43,218 nucleotides of DNA from a virus. The notes below the pieces were generated by a model that saw nothing but the letters and a program-made list of their open reading frames with translations, was not told the origin of the DNA and ran no database searches. The position numbers were made by a program, and so were the translations under genes. Location of the stretch: IMG/VR virus record IMGVR_UViG_3300029882_000050, positions 1-43,218 of that record. One strand, given 5' to 3'. Positions 12,200 to 23,333 of the stretch are shown piece after piece; the stretch's first letter is position 1; the number at the start of each line of letters is the position of its first letter.

Positions 12200-13532
12200 C
12201 TACGAAAATGGCGTGGTGTCCGATACCTGGAGGCCCTGGAGCAGGCCCGAGTAGAACGGCGCGTGGGAGACAAGCGCTCCGTATGCGAAGATGCTGTAGC
12301 GGAACGTGGCGTCGATCACGGGCCACGCGATGCTCATGTAGTCCTGGACCATCGTCATTTCCCAGGCGTTGGCCACATTGGTCCACGTCTGGGGGAGCTG
12401 GTAGGTCATGAGCGCGGCAGTGCCCTGGGTGAGCCACGGGTGGACCACCAGTTTGAGGACGGACCGGGTGATCGGGTTCTGGAACTCACTCACCGCGCCG
12501 CCGACACGCATGCCGGAGACGTCACTCTGATCCATGAACAGCCGGTAGTTCGTGGCCGCGCCCTGGCTGATGACGTCGTTGGACAGGCGCATGATGTCGC
12601 CACCGTCGCCAACGAGTTCCGCAGGGTCGGCCTTGAACGCGCCGGGGTTGTTGGAGCTGTTGTTCTCCCACAGGGCGTCCAGCGCCGTGTAGATGACGTT
12701 GTAGCTCAGGTGGGTGCCCACGGCCCCGTTGTAGTAGCCGCCCTGCCAGTTGGCCGGGTACACGCCGGAGGTGGCCGACTTGCCCGCGAGGGTGGGTATG
12801 ATCCCCTCCATGCGGGTGCTGGCACCGGTGCCGGTGTCGGTGGCGGGCGGTGTGACTGCGGTCGGCAGGGTGCTGAAACCCTGCAGGGTGTACTTCGAAC
12901 CGCCGACACCCGTGGCAAGCAGGTAGTAGCTGGAACCGCTGGTGAAGCCGTAGATGTTGTACGTCATCGCGCCCGCAACAGTCGGGATGGTGACGTCCAC
13001 GACCTGGCCCGAGGACACGGCGAACGTGCTCGACGCGACGGACACAGGCGTGCTGCCGTAGTAGTTCACGGCTGAGACCTTGACCGCCGTGAAGGCGGTG
13101 TTCAGCGCGGTCTCGTTGGACCCAGCGGTGCGGACCGTGGCGGTCGGAGTACCCGGGGTGGCGAGGTTCGTACTCGTGCCCGCGAGCATCTGGTATTCCT
13201 CACCGAGCATCATTTCCTGAAGCAGGATGAGGTTGGCGAGGGCCGAAACATCTTCGAATCCTTGGCCTGCGAACTGTGCAAGCCACGAAAGCGACTCGGT
13301 GAGTCCGAAGAAGCGATACGGGACATTCAGGGTGACTTCGGTCTGCGAACCCGACTGCGGCAGGTTGAGCGGCCACGAAGTACCGGCAAGCGTACCCGCG
13401 CTCTCGACAAGCTCGGGAATCGAGATGTCGAGGACGCCCTGACCACCGGTCTGGGAGCCGGAGATGCCGGTGAACACCTTCTCCATGCGGCTCGTACCCT
13501 GACCGGCAGGTCGGGGCAGCTTGTTACGGAAG
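12200..13532 (-). CDS. Major capsid protein, exon 3 (C-terminal part)
   Basis: The last 444 codons (incl. stop) of an HK97-fold major capsid protein, joined by RNA splicing to exons at 14670-14743 and 15059-15463; the full product is predicted at 603 residues. The exon opens with C completing Val, then FRNKLPRP, GTSRMEKVFTGISGSQTGG. This directly continues YPMYTV of exon 2, a run typical of actinophage capsid proteins. An inserted beta domain (about residues 285-380 of the full product, VSVASSTFAVSSGQVVDVTI) looks Ig-like or surface-exposed. The C-terminal part, GDIMRLSNDVISQGAATNY to the end, is the A-domain. An ATG-initiated frame from 13486 exists but would lack the N-arm and E-loop parts, so a free-standing gene is improbable. 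Confidence 0.88.
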
Positions 13533-14669
13533 CGATCTGTTACCTCTCGCTACTGCCATCACCGTCGATCGGTGTGGGAGCGAGCGGATCGGTCATTTCT
13601 GCCGACCTCTGCATGTCCTCACGTGGTCCATGCAGACCGGACTGTATCATAATCTGTCGTTCTTGCTCTCTTCGCTTGCGTTGACCGGCTCGTAGGTTGG
13701 CTACCCAGTTAGCTCGCCATTCTGGGTCATCACGGAGATTGTTCATCCGCTCACCGAAGGCTTGCTTGTCACTGCGCTCAGAAAATGTCGGAGCTGATTC
13801 TGGGGTAAGACCAACCTCTGCGATCAATCGCCGCACGCACTCATCCGGATCAGCATCAATGTCTCGGTAATCGAACCTGAACACCTCATAGCCAGCGGCA
13901 GTGAGATCATCCGTACGTTGGGCGTCATACGCTTTCGCACTGTTGAGATAGTGGCTGCTGCCATCTGCCTCGATGATAATCTGCTTTTGACTGATGAGGA
14001 TGTCCACGACGTATCGACCATCGAGAAGCACCGCGTTTGCCTTGAAGGAGATGTGCGCCTTGCGAAGAGCTTTGTGCAAGAACCTCTCAGGAGGTGAGAT
14101 GCCACCCGTACCACGAATGGTTGGCAGCCGCTCAAGCCATTTGCGTCGCTGTTCTTGTCGCCAAACCGGATCATCCCAGTTCTTGGCACTTGCCTCTCGC
14201 CAAGAATCTGTCTTTTTCTGACCTTTGAGATGACCACGCGGTCGTAGTTGAATACCACGGCGGTTTAGCTCACTGTAGGTGATCTTTTCGGTGGTGTGGA
14301 GCCGTCTGGCGACAGCTGGAACAGACTGAAGTTCTTGGTAGAGTTCAACGAGTCCAGACCAGTCGACATCACCGACGCGGGTGTGCTTGATGATGCCCTG
14401 GCGTTTCATCTCCATGGACATCTCAGGTGCACTGACACCGTAGCTCTTAGCCAGATCACGTACACTGTGAACAGTTTTGCAGACCTCCACAAGATCACTC
14501 ATGTTGACAGACTCACCCCGTGCAGTCTCTACGGAGTCCCCAGGCTTTGGGGTTCCCTCGGTATTGCCCTCGTCCATAGGGATATTATCCCATATGTTGT
14601 GAAGGGGATCCACCGATACAGGGGTGTTTTCACCCACTCATCGCTGAGTGAGGCCGCCCATGTTAGTTG
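13533..14669 (-). ncRNA. Group I intron 2 in the capsid gene, with endonuclease gene
   Basis: 1137-base predicted intron. The 5' exon ends in T (ACACCGT) and can pair with GCGG of an internal guide 16-19 bases inside the intron, giving the U-G pair at the splice site; the intron ends in G (13533). Core elements are visible on the minus strand: GGCAATACCGAGG near 14575-14556, GTAGAGACTGCACGG (R-like) at 14532-14518 and GATACAGTCC (S-like) near 13648-13639. The endonuclease gene sits between R and S and runs through S. Splicing restores the capsid reading frame exactly. The 3' part shares GGCAGAAATGACC with intron 1. Exact boundaries could shift by a few bases. Confidence 0.78.
13540..14502 (-). 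CDS. Intron-encoded homing endonuclease, EDxHD (Vsr/DUF559-like)
   Basis: 320 residues from ATG 14502; the frame is open to 14637 but the extra codons cover the intron core. Two N-terminal helix-turn-helix-like repeats (residues 1-37 and 47-83; each ending in RQGI/RRGI) probably bind DNA. The nuclease domain (about 130-235) carries E139 (SPPER), D167 (YVVDIL), E178-x-D-G, H184 and D193, the EDxHD set known from I-Bth0305I-type homing enzymes and the Vsr/PD-(D/E)XK fold. The C-terminal basic part has DDPEWRANW and QRKRREQERQ, DNA-binding-like. It likely cleaves intronless capsid genes at the exon 2/exon 3 junction and spreads the intron. Its final about 35 codons double as intron core sequence. 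All key residues appear intact. Confidence 0.85.
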   Translation of the reverse strand: MSDLVEVCKTVHSVRDLAKSYGVSAPEMSMEMKRQGIIKHTRVGDVDWSGLVELYQELQSVPAVARRLHTTEKITYSELNRRGIQLRPRGHLKGQKKTDSWREASAKNWDDPVWRQEQRRKWLERLPTIRGTGGISPPERFLHKALRKAHISFKANAVLLDGRYVVDILISQKQIIIEADGSSHYLNSAKAYDAQRTDDLTAAGYEVFRFDYRDIDADPDECVRRLIAEVGLTPESAPTFSERSDKQAFGERMNNLRDDPEWRANWVANLRAGQRKRREQERQIMIQSGLHGPREDMQRSAEMTDPLAPTPIDGDGSSER

Positions 14670-14743
14670 ACGGTGTACATCGGGTAAATCAGGCGGGAAG
14701 GTGCAAGAAGGTCAAAAGGGACAAGTCCACTGACGGTACCAAT
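14670..14743 (-). CDS. Major capsid protein, exon 2 (74-base middle exon)
   Basis: Only 24 codons plus two bases, encoding IGTVSGLVPFDLLAPSRLIY then PMYT and the first two bases of Val. This is a conserved segment of actinophage HK97-type capsid proteins (GLVPFDL..PSRLI.P) and is missing from both neighbouring frames. Unspliced, the frame stops at TAA directly after GTC AAC. Joining to exon 1 (ending NLG) and exon 3 (starting with the third base of Val, then FRNKLP) keeps frame and sense. It has no start codon or ribosome site of its own. Confidence 0.82.
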
Positions 14744-15058
14744 CATTGTTGTTACTCACCGCCGGGGCGGTGGGCCAGGTCATTTCTGCCTGGCTCCTGC
14801 ATTCTCATACAGGATCGGACTCTACCTTAGTCTGGTCTCTCGATGCGTTAGACCAGACTCCACGTACCGAGTCTCTGAACCTTCCCCCTGGTCTTGCAAC
14901 TGTAGGGGCTCGGCTGCTGATTACCTCTACCCTCAAACTTTTTGGACCATCACGCTCGCTTTTTCAGGCCACGTTGTGGTGTTGAGGTCTAGCAAGGCTT
15001 TCCAGCAATTCTCGTGGTTTTCACTGACGAATCACTCCGTCAGGCGGCGTTGTTACTC
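14744..15058 (-). ncRNA. Group I intron 1 in the capsid gene (no ORF)
   Basis: 315-base predicted intron. Conserved core blocks are clear on the minus strand: AATCAGCAGCCGAGCCCC (P/Q) at 14922-14905, GTTCAGAGACTC (R) at 14880-14869 and AAGGTAGAGTCC (S) near 14828-14817. Exon 1 ends CGGT and can pair with GCCG 11-14 bases inside the intron, with U-G at the splice site; the intron ends in G at 14744. It carries no open frame. A 14-base direct repeat, CGGTGAGTAACAAC, spans both ends (15049-15062 and 14748-14761). A 3' hairpin (CCAGG CAGAAATGA CCTGG) resembles one in intron 2. Confidence 0.82.
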
Positions 15059-15463
15059 ACCGAGGTTACCGGCAGTGAAGCTACGGGTCAGATCAGCACC
15101 AGCAACCCCACCCAGGACCTGCTGCAGCTGCTCACCGATGCTGGGCATCGTGAGTGCCGTCTTGAGGTACCCGAACTGGTTCAGGAAGCCGTCGTTGAGG
15201 CCCTTCACGACCTCAGCGCGGTTGTGGTATCCCTGCTGGGTCGCTACGCGCAGGTCCATGGTGGCCTGGTGCGCCTTGGTCGCGATCTGGACGGGGTCGG
15301 AAAGGGCAGCATTGCCCTCCACATAACCCGCACCCTTGACCATGTAGGGCATGCGCGCCTTGAGCATGTCGCCCGTGCGGTCGTGGCGTGAAGCTTCCTT
15401 GCCTGCCTCACGAGTGACCTGTCCGGGCGTCGGGGAGTCCAGGGTGTTGAGAATGTCAGCCAT
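15059..15463 (-). CDS. Major capsid protein, exon 1 (N-terminal part)
   Basis: 135 codons from ATG 15463 behind AAGGAGGGG; an upstream GTG-type start at 15481 is less likely as it overlaps that site. The product begins MADILNTLDSPTPGQVTREA and continues through a helical N-terminal region (GDMLKARMPYMVKGAGYVEG) to LTRSFTAGNLG, the typical lead-in to the capsid E-loop and spine. Without splicing translation would end one codon later (GAG TAA). It follows the protease/scaffold gene, the standard order. The N-terminal helix-rich part probably acts as scaffold-binding arm or is cleaved by the protease. Confidence 0.85.
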
Positions 15464-15504
15464 GGATGCCCCTCCTTTCACTGAAAGTACGGAACGTTTG
15501 CGAA

Positions 15505-18403: not shown

Positions 18404-18595
18404 TCAGCTGTGGGCCGAGTCATTGATCTTCAACTTCGCGGCCCACACGCCGTCCGGGCCCTGCATTACGTACCCATGGTCCGTGAGGACCGCGCGGTAC
18501 TGCAGGGAGAGATTCACATCCATGTCCCGCAGCTGATTGAGATCAGCTGCGATACGTGAGAGGAGTACTGTTGGAGACGTCCTAGTGTCCGACAC
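18404..18595 (-). CDS. Small hypothetical protein after the portal gene
   Basis: 63 residues if started at GTG 18595, nine bases behind GGAGG; a GTG at 18604 is too close to that site. It overlaps the portal C-terminus by 14 bases. The product has an amphipathic helix (LLSRIAADLNQLRDMDVNLS) followed by YRAVLTDHGYVMQGPDGVWA, a strand pair. No family recognised. A GGCCCAGCT...AGCTGTGGGCC stem overlaps its stop and may end or pause transcription. Confidence 0.6.
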   Translation of the reverse strand: MSDTRTSPTVLLSRIAADLNQLRDMDVNLSLQYRAVLTDHGYVMQGPDGVWAAKLKINDSAHS

Positions 18596-21500
18596 AGTCG
18601 TCACCCTCCGTCCCCGGAGGGATCTTTCCGCCGTCCGTGTTCAGCTTATTTTCGTTCATGGTCTTGCCCCACGGTCCCGTAGCGGTCGTTACCGTGCCGA
18701 TCCACGCCCGGATGGAGGTCTGCTTGGCCTTCTCGAACGCCAGCGTGCGATGCCACCCATCCGCGATCTCGTACTTTCCGTTGCCCGGGGTGTCCACCAG
18801 GACCACCGGGTGGGTGGGTGGCGTACCATCCTCGATGGAGCGCACCATGGCGTCCACCTCCGGCATGTCCCGTGCCCCTCCGGGACGCCTGGCCATGTCG
18901 ATGCCGGACAACGGGACTTCGGTCGGGCCGTGCCAGTGGGCCTCCTTGACCCATTCCAGCACGTCCTGCGGGTAGTTCTTCAGCAAATACGCGTACACGT
19001 CCGCAGCGGTACCCCCGCCATGTCCGTGCTCGTTCTTGAGCGTGGCCTGGTCATCGGGTGTCGGGATGCCGTTGGCGTCGTGGGGGTACAGGGTGGGACC
19101 ACCCCCGCCTGCCGGGATGTACGGCAGTGACGTGGCCTGGGGACTGGTGTCCCACATGATCTGACCGCTGATGTCCACGATCCGGCGTCCCCGGAGCTGC
19201 GCCACGGCCTCTTCCGGTGTGGCCCTCCCCTTAATGGACAGGGCGACCTCCACCAGCTCCATACTGGTGAGGTGGCGCGGGGACCAGGTGGCCAGGTCGC
19301 GCCCCTTGTTGAGGTGGCGCGCCAGGGCCTCCAGCTCTGCCAGCACGGCGCGTGTCTTGCTCGCCCCGTGCAGCATGGCCTCTTCCAACTGGTCCGCCGT
19401 GATGTCCCCGGGCTCCACCGAGATGCCCTGGTACCCGCCACCGGCACGGATCCGCGCGTTGAGCAGGTCGGCAAGCTGCTGCCGCATGGCATCACGCGCC
19501 GCTGCACGTGCTGCCGCATCGGTCGGCATGGTCGCCAGGTCGTCCGCACGAAACTGCTGGATGTCCTCGCGCTGCTGACTGATGTCCGCCAACTGCTGCT
19601 GATAGTAGGGAATCGACTGGCCGCGCCCCGGGTTGGTCCCGGTGGCGACGTCCTCACCCTCCTGGACATACGTCAATGAACACGCGCAATTCGGACCGCC
19701 CGCGCAGATGTCCCCGAACCCTCCGTCCCCAGGGTAGCCCGGGAGGGTGTGGAACGTGAACAGCTTGCCCGCGCGGTCCAGGCACGGCCTGCAGTGGTCC
19801 GCCGCGCCCAGCTCCCACCTGATCTGGTAGTCCTGGCCGCCCTCCGTGCGCACCGTGGTGCCGTACGCCGCGTTGTACGCCGCGTTGACGGTGTTGCCGT
19901 ACATGGCAAGCCTGTTGGCCAGGTCGGCAAGCATGCCGACCGTGAGCACGGTGGACAACAGCCCGATGAGGAAGCCGCGCTGGTTCTCCGCCCGGGTGGC
20001 CGCGTCAGCGGTGACGGAATCGTCGTCTGACGGGTCCTCGTTCCCGTCGTCCTCGGACAGGCTGTCGTCCGAGGCACGGAACCCGTGGTCGGCCCTGGCG
20101 TCCTTGGCCGCATGGGTCATCGCCGTGCGGTAGCCGGACGCAAGGAGCGCCACAGCCGTGTCGGTCGCCTGCGGGACCGTGGTGCGGCCGTCCTTGAGCG
20201 AGGCGCAGACGTCGGTGAGCCGCGCGGTGACGTGGTCCACGGTGGCCTGCACACGACTGTCCCGCCGCGCCTGGTGCGCAGCCCCTTCCGGGCTGCGTTT
20301 GTCCGCCTTGCCCGTCGCCGGAGCGGCAGGCTTCTTGGCGGAAGTCGCCAGGGACGAGGATCCTCCGGGCTTGGAGGCGGTGGCATTAGCGCCCTCGGCC
20401 GCGTCGTGCCCCGGGGACTGCCCTGCGTTGCCCGTGACGGGCTTGGCAGGCTTCGCCGGTCCCGGAGTGCCACCGGACGCCGGAGCGGCTCCAGGAGCCC
20501 CGCCAGGGGGGATTGCGGCCTGCTGCTGGGCAGGGGTGACGCCGGGGGGCAGTTCGAGCAGCGGCCCGTTGACGAGGTTGGTAGCCCGTGCCTGGGACGC
20601 CTCCGTGAGGGGGACCCAGCCACCGGCCACGGTCGCCCACCCGGGATCCGAGGTCTCCGGCAATCCCCACGGCTGCAGGCCCAGTTCGTCCCGCGCCTCA
20701 TCAATGGAGCGGAAGGCCGCGCCCACCTGCCCGATCAGCATGGTGGTCTTGGTGGCCTCGTCCTCCTGCTCTTCGAGGCCCTCGAACACGAACCGCATGT
20801 CGTCCTGGCCGCACACGTCCTGCAGGACGGCCGTCATGATGTCGGCAATGAACGTCAGCATCGGCTTCGTCGCCTTGCGCTGCTGCACGCTCTGCGACGC
20901 CTTGGCCATTTGATTGGACGCGCCGGGACTGACCGTGGTGGAGACCTTGGGCGAGATGCCCAGTTCCATCGGTTGAATATCGAATGCCATGCAATTCATT
21001 TGTGCACCACCCGTTGTGAAGTACGAGTGGTCCTCCTGCACATTCAGGTTCCAGACAACCTGATCCGTGTAGTCGGAGGCTTCGTTCGCCTGCACGGCGC
21101 TGGTGAGGTAGCCATCCTCCAGCTTGTAGCTGTTCGGCTTCTGGGAATCCGTCACCCACTGCACAACATAGATGAATCCCTGACCACCCATTTTGCGGCC
21201 ACCGAAGGACGTCTCCGGCTGCTTCTGCGTACGGATGCCCGCAGCGTGCCCGCACATGGCCGCAACGAGGCGCATCTGCCAAGCGAGGCTCTTACTGGCG
21301 GTGTAGCCCCTGAATCCGTTCGACGTCGTACAGCCGTCGCCGTTGATCCAGCCTTCGAGCAGCCCTTCGAAGAACTCCCTCGAACCGTCCCAGGCCCATT
21401 CTGGCAGCACTTTATCGACCGCAGTACCACACGAGAACAGGTCTCCCAATGCCGTGCTGTACGCCTCTACATACACAACTTCGGTACCCGCTTGGGCTCG

Positions 21501-23333
21501 ACGGACTGTGTCTATCCCAAAGATGTCGGATACAGCCTTGGATACCACGTCGTGGTAGTCGGCCTCCTTTTTGTGGAAGGACCAGACAATACGCCCCCGA
21601 CTGTACGACCCCTCAGCCATGTAATACCCTAGCAGCAGGCCGAGCTGTCGATCCATGCAGATGTACGTTGGAAGAGACTTGGCCTTGGGGGAATAACTGC
21701 GTGGCAGCCATTCGGAAACGTCCAGCTTGGCGTCATTGGACCCGAGCTCTGGAATGGGCATAGTGACGCTGTCGAAATCACCACGAGATTTTTTAGCTTT
21801 GATCTCCTCGGCCGGAACCCAGGAAACCTCCTTGAGGAAACTCTTGTGGCTGGCAGTCTGCCCCTTGCGGGCTGACCAGAACTTGTGGTTGTCGGTCACC
21901 TCGATCGTGTCGAAGCCCCGAGCGGACACCTTGCGTACCGGGCGATCGCCCCGCTCGTTCTTGAACTTGGCCAGGACAGGACGCCAGCGGTTCCGGTGCG
22001 TCAGAACCTGGTCGCCCACCTCGATATTCTCGACAGCGACCAGACCGCGCTTCGTCAGGATCTCGGTGCCGGGGACGACGCACACCTGATTCATGACGAT
22101 CTCATCGAATTGGTCTGCGATCTGGGGGGACTTCTGCGGGTCCACCTTGGAGTCTGCTGGAAGTACGATGATCTTGTGCTTCCACGCAGGGTCCCCCGCA
22201 ATGGCGTTCAGCGCGTCCTGCAGCTCCCGAATCTGATTGGGCGTCATATTCGCGTTGACACCGCCCGGGGAGACGAAGACCGCCGGAACAGTTCCCTCGC
22301 GGAAGTAGTCCAGTTGGTACCCCTGCTTTTGCAGGCCCGACATGACCGGGATCAGCGCACGCTCAATCGGCGGGAAGCCGTAGGGCGTCCACCGGCGCGG
22401 GGTCATGGGGAGGTAAAGAAGCTGATCCGCCTTGTAGCGGTTCATCTCCGCGCCCTGCAGGCCGCCCTCTTCGATGTCCCGCTCGTTGATCAGCGTCATC
22501 AGGTCGCAGCGGGGCACACCGTACAAGTACTGCTGGTACGCGGGCGCGGGGGGGCGCGGGCGCTCCCCGTGCAGTCCGAGAAGGGGCCGAATGGTGGGCC
22601 CGTTGATCAGGGACAGGGAATCCAGGTCAGACCCCAGCAGCCCTTTCCCCGTGCCCTTCTTCGTGCTCTTCGCCCACTTCTGCCGGAACAGCAGGGAAAG
22701 GGCGTCGAACACCAGGATCTCTTCCAGGAACGCGTCAATGAACGTGTTCCACGAGAAGTAGTCGGGGTCCGGCTTGCGGAAGAACTTGACAGCCTCCGCA
22801 CGCCTGCTGCCGAAATCCTTCATTGCGCCACGGTCACCGCGCATCGTCTTCGCCGCATCGAGGCTGGGCATGATGTCCCATTCGATACCGCGTACCTCTG
22901 CCTTGCGCAGCTGAATGCACGCACGGGCCACCGAGTACAGGTCTGCCAGGGTGCGCAGGGTGTTGAAGTCGCACAGCTTGATGCCCTCGGAACCGGGCTG
23001 CCCGGTCGGGAGGTTGTACCCCGGTTCGTACTGGAACAGTCGCGGGTCCGGGAACTCCGTGCCCTGGGCCGGAGCGTCCACCGGAACAGGCAGGATGGGG
23101 CTGAACGGCCCGAACGCACCGTTGGTGAAGGTCTCCGTGGGACGCGGCAGGTAGCCCTGGTACGCGCCCCCCCACGTGGCTGTAGCACCCCCGCTGGTCA
23201 GCTCCTGGGCCAGCGGGGAGAAGCTTCCGTAGCCCGGGGCTGTGGCGAGTCCCTGGGGAGCAGGGGTGGGTCGTGCTCCGCCGGGAATGCTCTTCGCGCC
23301 CATGATGATGCTGCCGCGAGATGCCACGGTCAC
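18582..23333 (-). CDS. Portal protein fused to MuF-type and ParB-like domains, interrupted by an intein
   Basis: 1583 residues as translated, about 1220 after intein removal. Residues about 100-417 and 781-900 form the portal (RTLADLYSVARACIQLRKAE, YGFPPIERAL, YFREGTVPAVFVSPGG, QPMELGISP), the dodecameric DNA gate. An Ala/Pro/Gly linker follows. Residues about 1120-1225 are a MuF-like head morphogenesis domain with CRPC and CAGGPNCACSLTYV. Residues about 1465-1550 look ParB/Srx-like (MPEVDAMVRSIEDG, ADGWHRTLAFEKAK). Fusion of portal and MuF is known; a third ParB-like part is rarer. GTG at 23333 starts it. Intein residues are 418-780. After splicing, NQV joins CMAFDIQ. The portal call is firm; the C-terminal fold is by motif. 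Confidence 0.9.
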   Translation of the reverse strand: MTVASRGSIIMGAKSIPGGARPTPAPQGLATAPGYGSFSPLAQELTSGGATATWGGAYQGYLPRPTETFTNGAFGPFSPILPVPVDAPAQGTEFPDPRLFQYEPGYNLPTGQPGSEGIKLCDFNTLRTLADLYSVARACIQLRKAEVRGIEWDIMPSLDAAKTMRGDRGAMKDFGSRRAEAVKFFRKPDPDYFSWNTFIDAFLEEILVFDALSLLFRQKWAKSTKKGTGKGLLGSDLDSLSLINGPTIRPLLGLHGERPRPPAPAYQQYLYGVPRCDLMTLINERDIEEGGLQGAEMNRYKADQLLYLPMTPRRWTPYGFPPIERALIPVMSGLQKQGYQLDYFREGTVPAVFVSPGGVNANMTPNQIRELQDALNAIAGDPAWKHKIIVLPADSKVDPQKSPQIADQFDEIVMNQVCVVPGTEILTKRGLVAVENIEVGDQVLTHRNRWRPVLAKFKNERGDRPVRKVSARGFDTIEVTDNHKFWSARKGQTASHKSFLKEVSWVPAEEIKAKKSRGDFDSVTMPIPELGSNDAKLDVSEWLPRSYSPKAKSLPTYICMDRQLGLLLGYYMAEGSYSRGRIVWSFHKKEADYHDVVSKAVSDIFGIDTVRRAQAGTEVVYVEAYSTALGDLFSCGTAVDKVLPEWAWDGSREFFEGLLEGWINGDGCTTSNGFRGYTASKSLAWQMRLVAAMCGHAAGIRTQKQPETSFGGRKMGGQGFIYVVQWVTDSQKPNSYKLEDGYLTSAVQANEASDYTDQVVWNLNVQEDHSYFTTGGAQMNCMAFDIQPMELGISPKVSTTVSPGASNQMAKASQSVQQRKATKPMLTFIADIMTAVLQDVCGQDDMRFVFEGLEEQEDEATKTTMLIGQVGAAFRSIDEARDELGLQPWGLPETSDPGWATVAGGWVPLTEASQARATNLVNGPLLELPPGVTPAQQQAAIPPGGAPGAAPASGGTPGPAKPAKPVTGNAGQSPGHDAAEGANATASKPGGSSSLATSAKKPAAPATGKADKRSPEGAAHQARRDSRVQATVDHVTARLTDVCASLKDGRTTVPQATDTAVALLASGYRTAMTHAAKDARADHGFRASDDSLSEDDGNEDPSDDDSVTADAATRAENQRGFLIGLLSTVLTVGMLADLANRLAMYGNTVNAAYNAAYGTTVRTEGGQDYQIRWELGAADHCRPCLDRAGKLFTFHTLPGYPGDGGFGDICAGGPNCACSLTYVQEGEDVATGTNPGRGQSIPYYQQQLADISQQREDIQQFRADDLATMPTDAAARAAARDAMRQQLADLLNARIRAGGGYQGISVEPGDITADQLEEAMLHGASKTRAVLAELEALARHLNKGRDLATWSPRHLTSMELVEVALSIKGRATPEEAVAQLRGRRIVDISGQIMWDTSPQATSLPYIPAGGGGPTLYPHDANGIPTPDDQATLKNEHGHGGGTAADVYAYLLKNYPQDVLEWVKEAHWHGPTEVPLSGIDMARRPGGARDMPEVDAMVRSIEDGTPPTHPVVLVDTPGNGKYEIADGWHRTLAFEKAKQTSIRAWIGTVTTATGPWGKTMNENKLNTDGGKIPPGTEGDDCVGH
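20994..22082 (-). other. Intein in the portal gene, LAGLIDADG (DOD) endonuclease type
   Basis: 363 residues in frame with the portal. Block A: CVVPGTEILTKRGLVAVENI with Cys1. Block B: EVTDNHKF with the TxxH motif. Endonuclease blocks C and E: LGLLLGYYMAEGS and FFEGLLEGWINGDG, so the first acidic site is Glu and the second Asp. Block F: VWNLNVQEDHSYFTTGG. Block G: AQMN before Cys+1, so the terminal Asn is present but the usual penultimate His is Met. Inteins with non-His at this place are known to splice, sometimes more slowly. Insertion is at the conserved NQV/CMAFD of the portal core. Domain order and nucleophiles look intact, so splicing is probable. Confidence 0.92.

Follow-up and report, generated by a model that had tools for sequence, protein, structure and literature searches.

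A probable major capsid gene interrupted by two predicted group I introns in an uncultivated tailed phage

A capsid candidate in three exons

The stretch of DNA analyzed here (hereafter the window) is the 43,218-nucleotide IMG/VR virus record IMGVR_UViG_3300029882_000050. On its minus strand, three open segments (15463–15059, 14743–14670 and 13532–12200) join into a single frame of 603 residues, a candidate for the major capsid gene of the phage. They are separated by two predicted group I introns. The introns of this gene in the window and its relatives fall into two classes, A, exemplified by intron 1, and B, a mixed set to which intron 2 belongs. The elements of the locus, with the evidence for each, are as follows:

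15471–15475, minus strand: Shine-Dalgarno-like GGAGG, 5′ of the capsid candidate's start codon (sequence)
15059–15463, minus strand: exon 1, codons 1–135, 405 nt (splice-site recovery; colinearity with uninterrupted relatives)
14744–15058, minus strand: intron 1, predicted class A group I intron without an ORF, 315 nt, phase 0 (Rfam RF00028; covariation)
14670–14743, minus strand: exon 2, 74 nt, from codon 136 through the first two bases of codon 160 (frame; colinearity with relatives; splice-site recovery)
13533–14669, minus strand: intron 2, 1137 nt, predicted group I intron of class B in phase 2, carrying an endonuclease gene at P8 (covariation with eight relatives; without an Rfam match)
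14621–14626, minus strand: 5′ strand of intron 2 P3, CACCCC, pairing with GGGGUG at 14514–14519 (structure alignment; covariation)
14523–14527, minus strand: 5′ strand of intron 2 P7, GACUG, pairing with 13640–13644 (covariation)
14514–14519, minus strand: 3′ strand of intron 2 P3, GGGGUG (structure alignment; covariation)
13540–14502, minus strand: DUF559/Vsr-like putative homing endonuclease ORF (PF04480; PDB 3hrl; dN/dS)
13640–13644, minus strand: 3′ strand of intron 2 P7, CAGUC (covariation)
12200–13532, minus strand: exon 3, from the third base of codon 160 through the stop codon, 1333 nt in all (frame; colinearity with relatives)

Intron 1 separates codon 135 from codon 136 (phase 0), and intron 2 splits codon 160 into GT and C (phase 2); the coding content of exon 2 is IGTVSGLVPFDLLAPSRLIYPMYT followed by the first two bases of V160. 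T is the last base of either 5′ exon, and G that of either intron. Translation would stop after 136 codons if intron 1 were retained, after 161 if intron 2 were retained and after 137 if exon 2 were skipped. The three-exon coordinates and 603-residue frame of the initial annotation proved exact on re-derivation, and the sequence bears out its description of the preserved frame and of the T and G at the junctions. Its 74-base size for exon 2 also stood, whereas the peptide that it quoted for this exon (GLV...MYT) lacked the first five residues. The record, which may be incomplete, carries a single copy of the gene; a second complete capsid gene, which the initial annotation had named as evidence against a split gene, is found nowhere else in it.

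An IMG/VR scan returned many relatives in which the gene is uninterrupted and colinear along the entire spliced protein. Across both joins these relatives read SFTAGNLG-IGTVSGLVPFDLLAPSRLIYPMYT-VFRNKLPRP, several of them being identical throughout that stretch, and the closest (L072) shares 83% protein identity and 77% DNA identity. A spliced-alignment program returned the proposed junctions exactly from a profile built only from uninterrupted relatives. With its T/G preference removed, the intron 2 junction stayed the same and that of intron 1 shifted by one base, within its ambiguity. The phage collection yielded only remote capsid homologues (about 25–28% identity), and bacterial genome contigs contained no capsid relative. 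In all 23 interrupted genes, including that of the window, the spliced coding sequence is free of stops. We infer from these sequence comparisons that both window introns are spliced in vivo.

The metagenomic origin of the record would allow for an assembly chimaera that put introns into an intact gene. We assign this a negligible probability, as the frame is exact, canonical splice nucleotides and P1 pairing are present at both ends, and site 160/2, occupied by intron 2 in the window, carries diverged introns in four other contigs.

The gene order in the window is terminase, portal, protease-like, capsid candidate, tail tube and tape measure, which places the candidate between portal/protease and tail genes, as in HK97-fold capsid loci. 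No Pfam or NCBIfam family matched the protein, and among curated families the only match was to phrog_13692 (PHROG 13692), annotated as 'unknown function'. A sequence-family match is usual, yet not obligatory, for a divergent HK97 fold. An AlphaFold model built from 72 relatives was of moderate quality (pLDDT 69, pTM 0.63), an earlier input of 20 sequences having given a poor model. In a Foldseek search with this model, the 16 best PDB matches were all phage capsid proteins, with those of SU10 and Pa223 at the top (best E 6e-5; TM low, about 0.45–0.5).

The lack of a Pfam or NCBIfam match and the uninformative PHROG label would also suit another virion protein of the head gene block, a reading that would leave the intron account unchanged, and a confidently modelled inserted domain (residues about 285–395) does resemble domains of tail and other virion proteins. 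We consider this unlikely given the canonical place of the gene after portal and protease-like genes and before tail genes, and given that all 16 best structural matches are capsid proteins. On the strength of the model and the gene order, we take the gene product to be, very probably, a major capsid protein of the HK97 fold; because no curated capsid family matched, we grade this as very probable and not as established. The HK97-type assignment in the initial annotation thus draws support from gene order and from a moderate model that matches capsids, but is not demonstrable by sequence. The portal-like ORF of the same block is very long (18585–23333, 1583 aa), with a portal match at residues 98–418 and a weak ParB-like match near the C-terminus.

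Two ribozymes and an endonuclease gene

Intron 1 matched Rfam RF00028 over the full model length at 60.7 bits (threshold 50 bits). It contains a P3–P8 and P4–P6 core with the P7 guanosine-binding helix, as well as a P1 in which the exon end CGGU pairs with the internal guide GCCG, and has no ORF. When the named structure was counted on ten introns of its class, paired cells reached 98.1%, compared with 79.1% after shuffling, and on most measures 0 of 500 shuffles did as well.

The core of intron 1 shows distant DNA similarity (about 72–74%) to unannotated stretches of Streptococcus phages, such as Javan129 (MK448675.1:40286–40401), and similarly (about 72–74%) to a stretch of Bacillus phage KLEB27-3 annotated as structural protein (OM634661.1:31847–31943). 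From their sequence, these stretches are likely to be related class A introns. Intron 1 has the 14-base string CGGTGAGTAACAAC at either end, once at 15049–15062 (the 5′ splice site) and once at about 14751–14764 (just before the 3′ end).

Intron 2 had no match in Rfam, which is probably due to the divergence of its class and to the ORF at P8; most of the relatives' introns likewise had no match at gathering level. We aligned intron 2 with eight relatives' introns after taking out the ORF. In the canonical P1–P9.1 structure, paired cells reached 95.9%, compared with 79.6% after shuffling and 32–41% in slid controls. Two-sided changes were present in 31 of 52 pairs, no measure was reached by any of 500 shuffles, and P3 and P7 were 100% paired in all nine aligned sequences. 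The P1 of intron 2 pairs the exon end CCGU with the internal guide GCGG, P1 pairing alone being a weak discriminator (at least 4 bp in 93% of introns and in 51% of shuffles). The classification of both inserts as group I introns in the initial annotation was therefore upheld, for intron 1 by the above-threshold RF00028 score and covariation and for intron 2 by P1–P9.1 covariation with eight relatives; the Rfam search proposed alongside it recovered intron 1 but not intron 2.

Inteins and group II introns were also considered for the two inserts, the lengths of which (315 and 1137) are divisible by three. Stops directly follow both junctions, a group I core is present with covariation, and no group II family appeared among the Rfam results. 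Both candidates were excluded by the in-frame stops and the structure, and we regard them as extremely improbable.

The ORF in intron 2 is counted from an ATG at 14502; its frame stays open further upstream, and this start is presumed. Its product falls in DUF559 (Pfam PF04480, 8.2e-16, above the cut-off) and matches a solved endonuclease-like protein (PDB 3hrl, 1.7e-4). Its dN/dS is about 0.26 relative to its counterparts in contigs L026 and L067, and 0.17–0.27 among closer pairs, with synonymous sites near saturation in most pairs; on these ratios, the gene is under purifying selection. The C-terminal coding region (13540–13650) overlaps the P7 3′ strand, P9 and P9.1, and its TAA stop is the TAA in the conserved GGTAACA tail. 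The C-terminus is thus encoded by the ribozyme's P7 3′ strand, P9 and tail, and the same sequence therefore has both functions. Relatives of the endonuclease beyond these phages are sparse, and a scan of viral contigs returned no match to it. The family and setting of the enzyme suggest that it would cleave the empty site.

If the inserts were instead degenerate or splicing-dead, the capsid gene would be a pseudogene or its product would be made in fragments. The viability of a metagenomic assembly cannot be read from sequence, and splicing itself is deduced, which leaves some room for this reading. However, all three exons are open and conserved, the spliced frame has no stops, neither intron has lost its P3/P7 core, selection on the endonuclease is purifying, and relatives carry intact introns at site 160/2. 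A capsid protein cut at 136 codons would, moreover, probably fail to assemble. We consider dead inserts very unlikely.

Recurrent insertion in relatives of the gene

Additional scans brought the set of relatives to 109 distinct genes, or about 110 with the window. Interruptions were present in 23 of these (window counted), which together hold 44 complete introns and one partial intron at about 24 positions. The positions form three clusters, at codons 135–160, 228–270 and 559–586, with site labels in diverged regions possibly one codon off and the first intron of contig L173 placed by eye. Nine of the 23 complete-intron positions fall inside 81 nt, compared with at most eight in 5000 random draws. 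A GTAACA tail, a feature not used by the splice-site finder, lies at most 30 nt from the 3′ end in all 44 complete introns. Several of the relatives' introns independently match Rfam at lower thresholds, three of them at or above threshold. Two splice-site calls were rejected. For the call at codon 122 in L173, inspection by eye moved the intron to site 145; the other call, at codon 594 in L193, is missing the GTAACA tail.

Internal exons in the relatives measure 16 (L026), 27, 29, 37, 37, 38, 42 and 54 nt, compared with 74 nt in the window. The most interrupted gene (L194:2885–5791) has five group I introns, at sites 150, 231, 559, 572 and 586, with exons of 38 and 42 nt; three of its introns also match Rfam, at various scores. 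Two genes have four introns each (L172, 454–3822; L196, 2–3841). The 16-nt exon (ACCCCGTGTACACCGT; L026:148–163) lies between an upstream class A intron clipped by the contig end and a site-160 intron. Exons of 29 nt (L071:3349–3377) and 27 nt (L056:4783–4809) are each flanked by introns, in genes with three introns. The initial annotation had called a tiny exon between introns in a capsid gene rare, a view that does not hold within this phage group, where tiny exons and the capsid location both recur many times.

Neighboring introns less than 100 nt apart differ in class in eight of nine cases (permutation p 0.02, relatedness ignored), and neighbors across long exons in 7 of 13. This pattern suggests selection for compatible intron pairs. 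In Staphylococcus phage Twort, exon skipping occurs where two highly similar introns flank a 23-nt exon, and it is suppressed in engineered intron pairs once the two ribozymes are made different (PMC10136302).

Third-codon-position GC (GC3) within 10 codons of insertion sites is about 11 points lower than in uninterrupted relatives and returns to normal by about 25–50 codons. In the window, GC3 is 50% in exon 2, compared with 78% in exon 1 (codons 1–134) and 85% in codons 186–603. The drop near insertion sites suggests co-conversion during homing. The footprint was not genome-specific when site sets were permuted among interrupted genomes (58/500), and the lowered GC3 of region 223–275 extends to genomes whose interruptions all lie outside it; other causes, such as earlier occupancy, are therefore possible.

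A tentative explanation, which we hold to be possible rather than probable, is that in this phage group the capsid gene serves as a hot zone for introns, where repeated homing with co-conversion keeps adding them at new positions a few codons apart, while selection against exon skipping sets which introns coexist. Neighbors around micro-exons would then differ in class because ribozymes resembling each other would form chimeric pairings in which the tiny exon is skipped.

Proposed course of splicing and comparison with known systems

The evidence makes it highly probable that two group I introns, independent of each other, split the major capsid gene of this phage and that its transcript is spliced to a 603-codon mRNA, with intron 2 carrying its own homing endonuclease; splicing, cleavage and homing are predicted steps in this account. 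The transcript would fold into two ribozymes, guanosine would attack each 5′ splice site (after ...CUCGGU and ...ACCGU), and the exons would be ligated after the terminal G of each intron, giving the 603-codon mRNA. The DUF559/Vsr-type endonuclease of intron 2 probably cuts intron-free capsid genes in co-infecting relatives, and repair would copy the intron and flanking exon into the cut genes. Intron 1, which has no ORF, may rely on splicing neutrality, on co-conversion with its neighbors or on an endonuclease acting in trans. In this account, the capsid gene of this phage group is a preferred target of such elements, and its micro-exons arose by repeated insertion.

Among the closest precedents is mycobacteriophage LittleE, where RT-PCR and protein sequencing demonstrated removal of a group I intron from the capsid gene (PMC3706429). 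As in the window, a group I intron with an endonuclease ORF lies in the major capsid gene of a phage with a high-GC host. LittleE has a single intron of about 820 nt, in which a LAGLIDADG-like ORF runs antisense (PMC3706429), whereas the window has two introns around a 74-nt exon, its DUF559 ORF is in sense orientation, and no database names its capsid family. A capsid intron in the lactococcal phage Tuc2009 is cited in PMC3706429 as well. Capsid genes of CrAss-like phages in the Delta and Zeta groups likewise contain group I introns, and one such gene in a Zeta phage is in five fragments; these phages belong to another lineage, and the excerpted text of PMC7886860 describes neither micro-exons, nor pairing of intron classes, nor a map of numerous insertion sites. 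Among other virion genes, Twort orf142 (tail tube) contains three group I introns with a 23-nt exon between two of them (PMC10136302, PMC11878797). Its neighbors are highly similar IA2 introns with exon skipping, whereas the neighbors around capsid micro-exons in this phage group are mostly of different classes. The tape-measure gene of Vibrio phage ICP1 has four exons, with several introns of varying endonuclease content in one late gene; it differs in being a tape-measure gene and in its HNH endonucleases (PMC10448857).

In the open-licence papers searched, we found no capsid gene family with so many insertion positions, micro-exons or mixed-class pairing. With about 24 positions, a maximum of five introns per gene and a shortest exon of 16 nt, these genes form a natural series on the accumulation of self-splicing introns, which also serves questions about the survival of very short exons and about possible selection for intron compatibility. 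Standard gene callers easily misannotate or miss the capsid gene of this phage group. Precedents exist for capsid introns, for several introns in one capsid gene or other virion gene and for a 23-nt phage exon, and the window gene is therefore an unusually dense case of a known kind.
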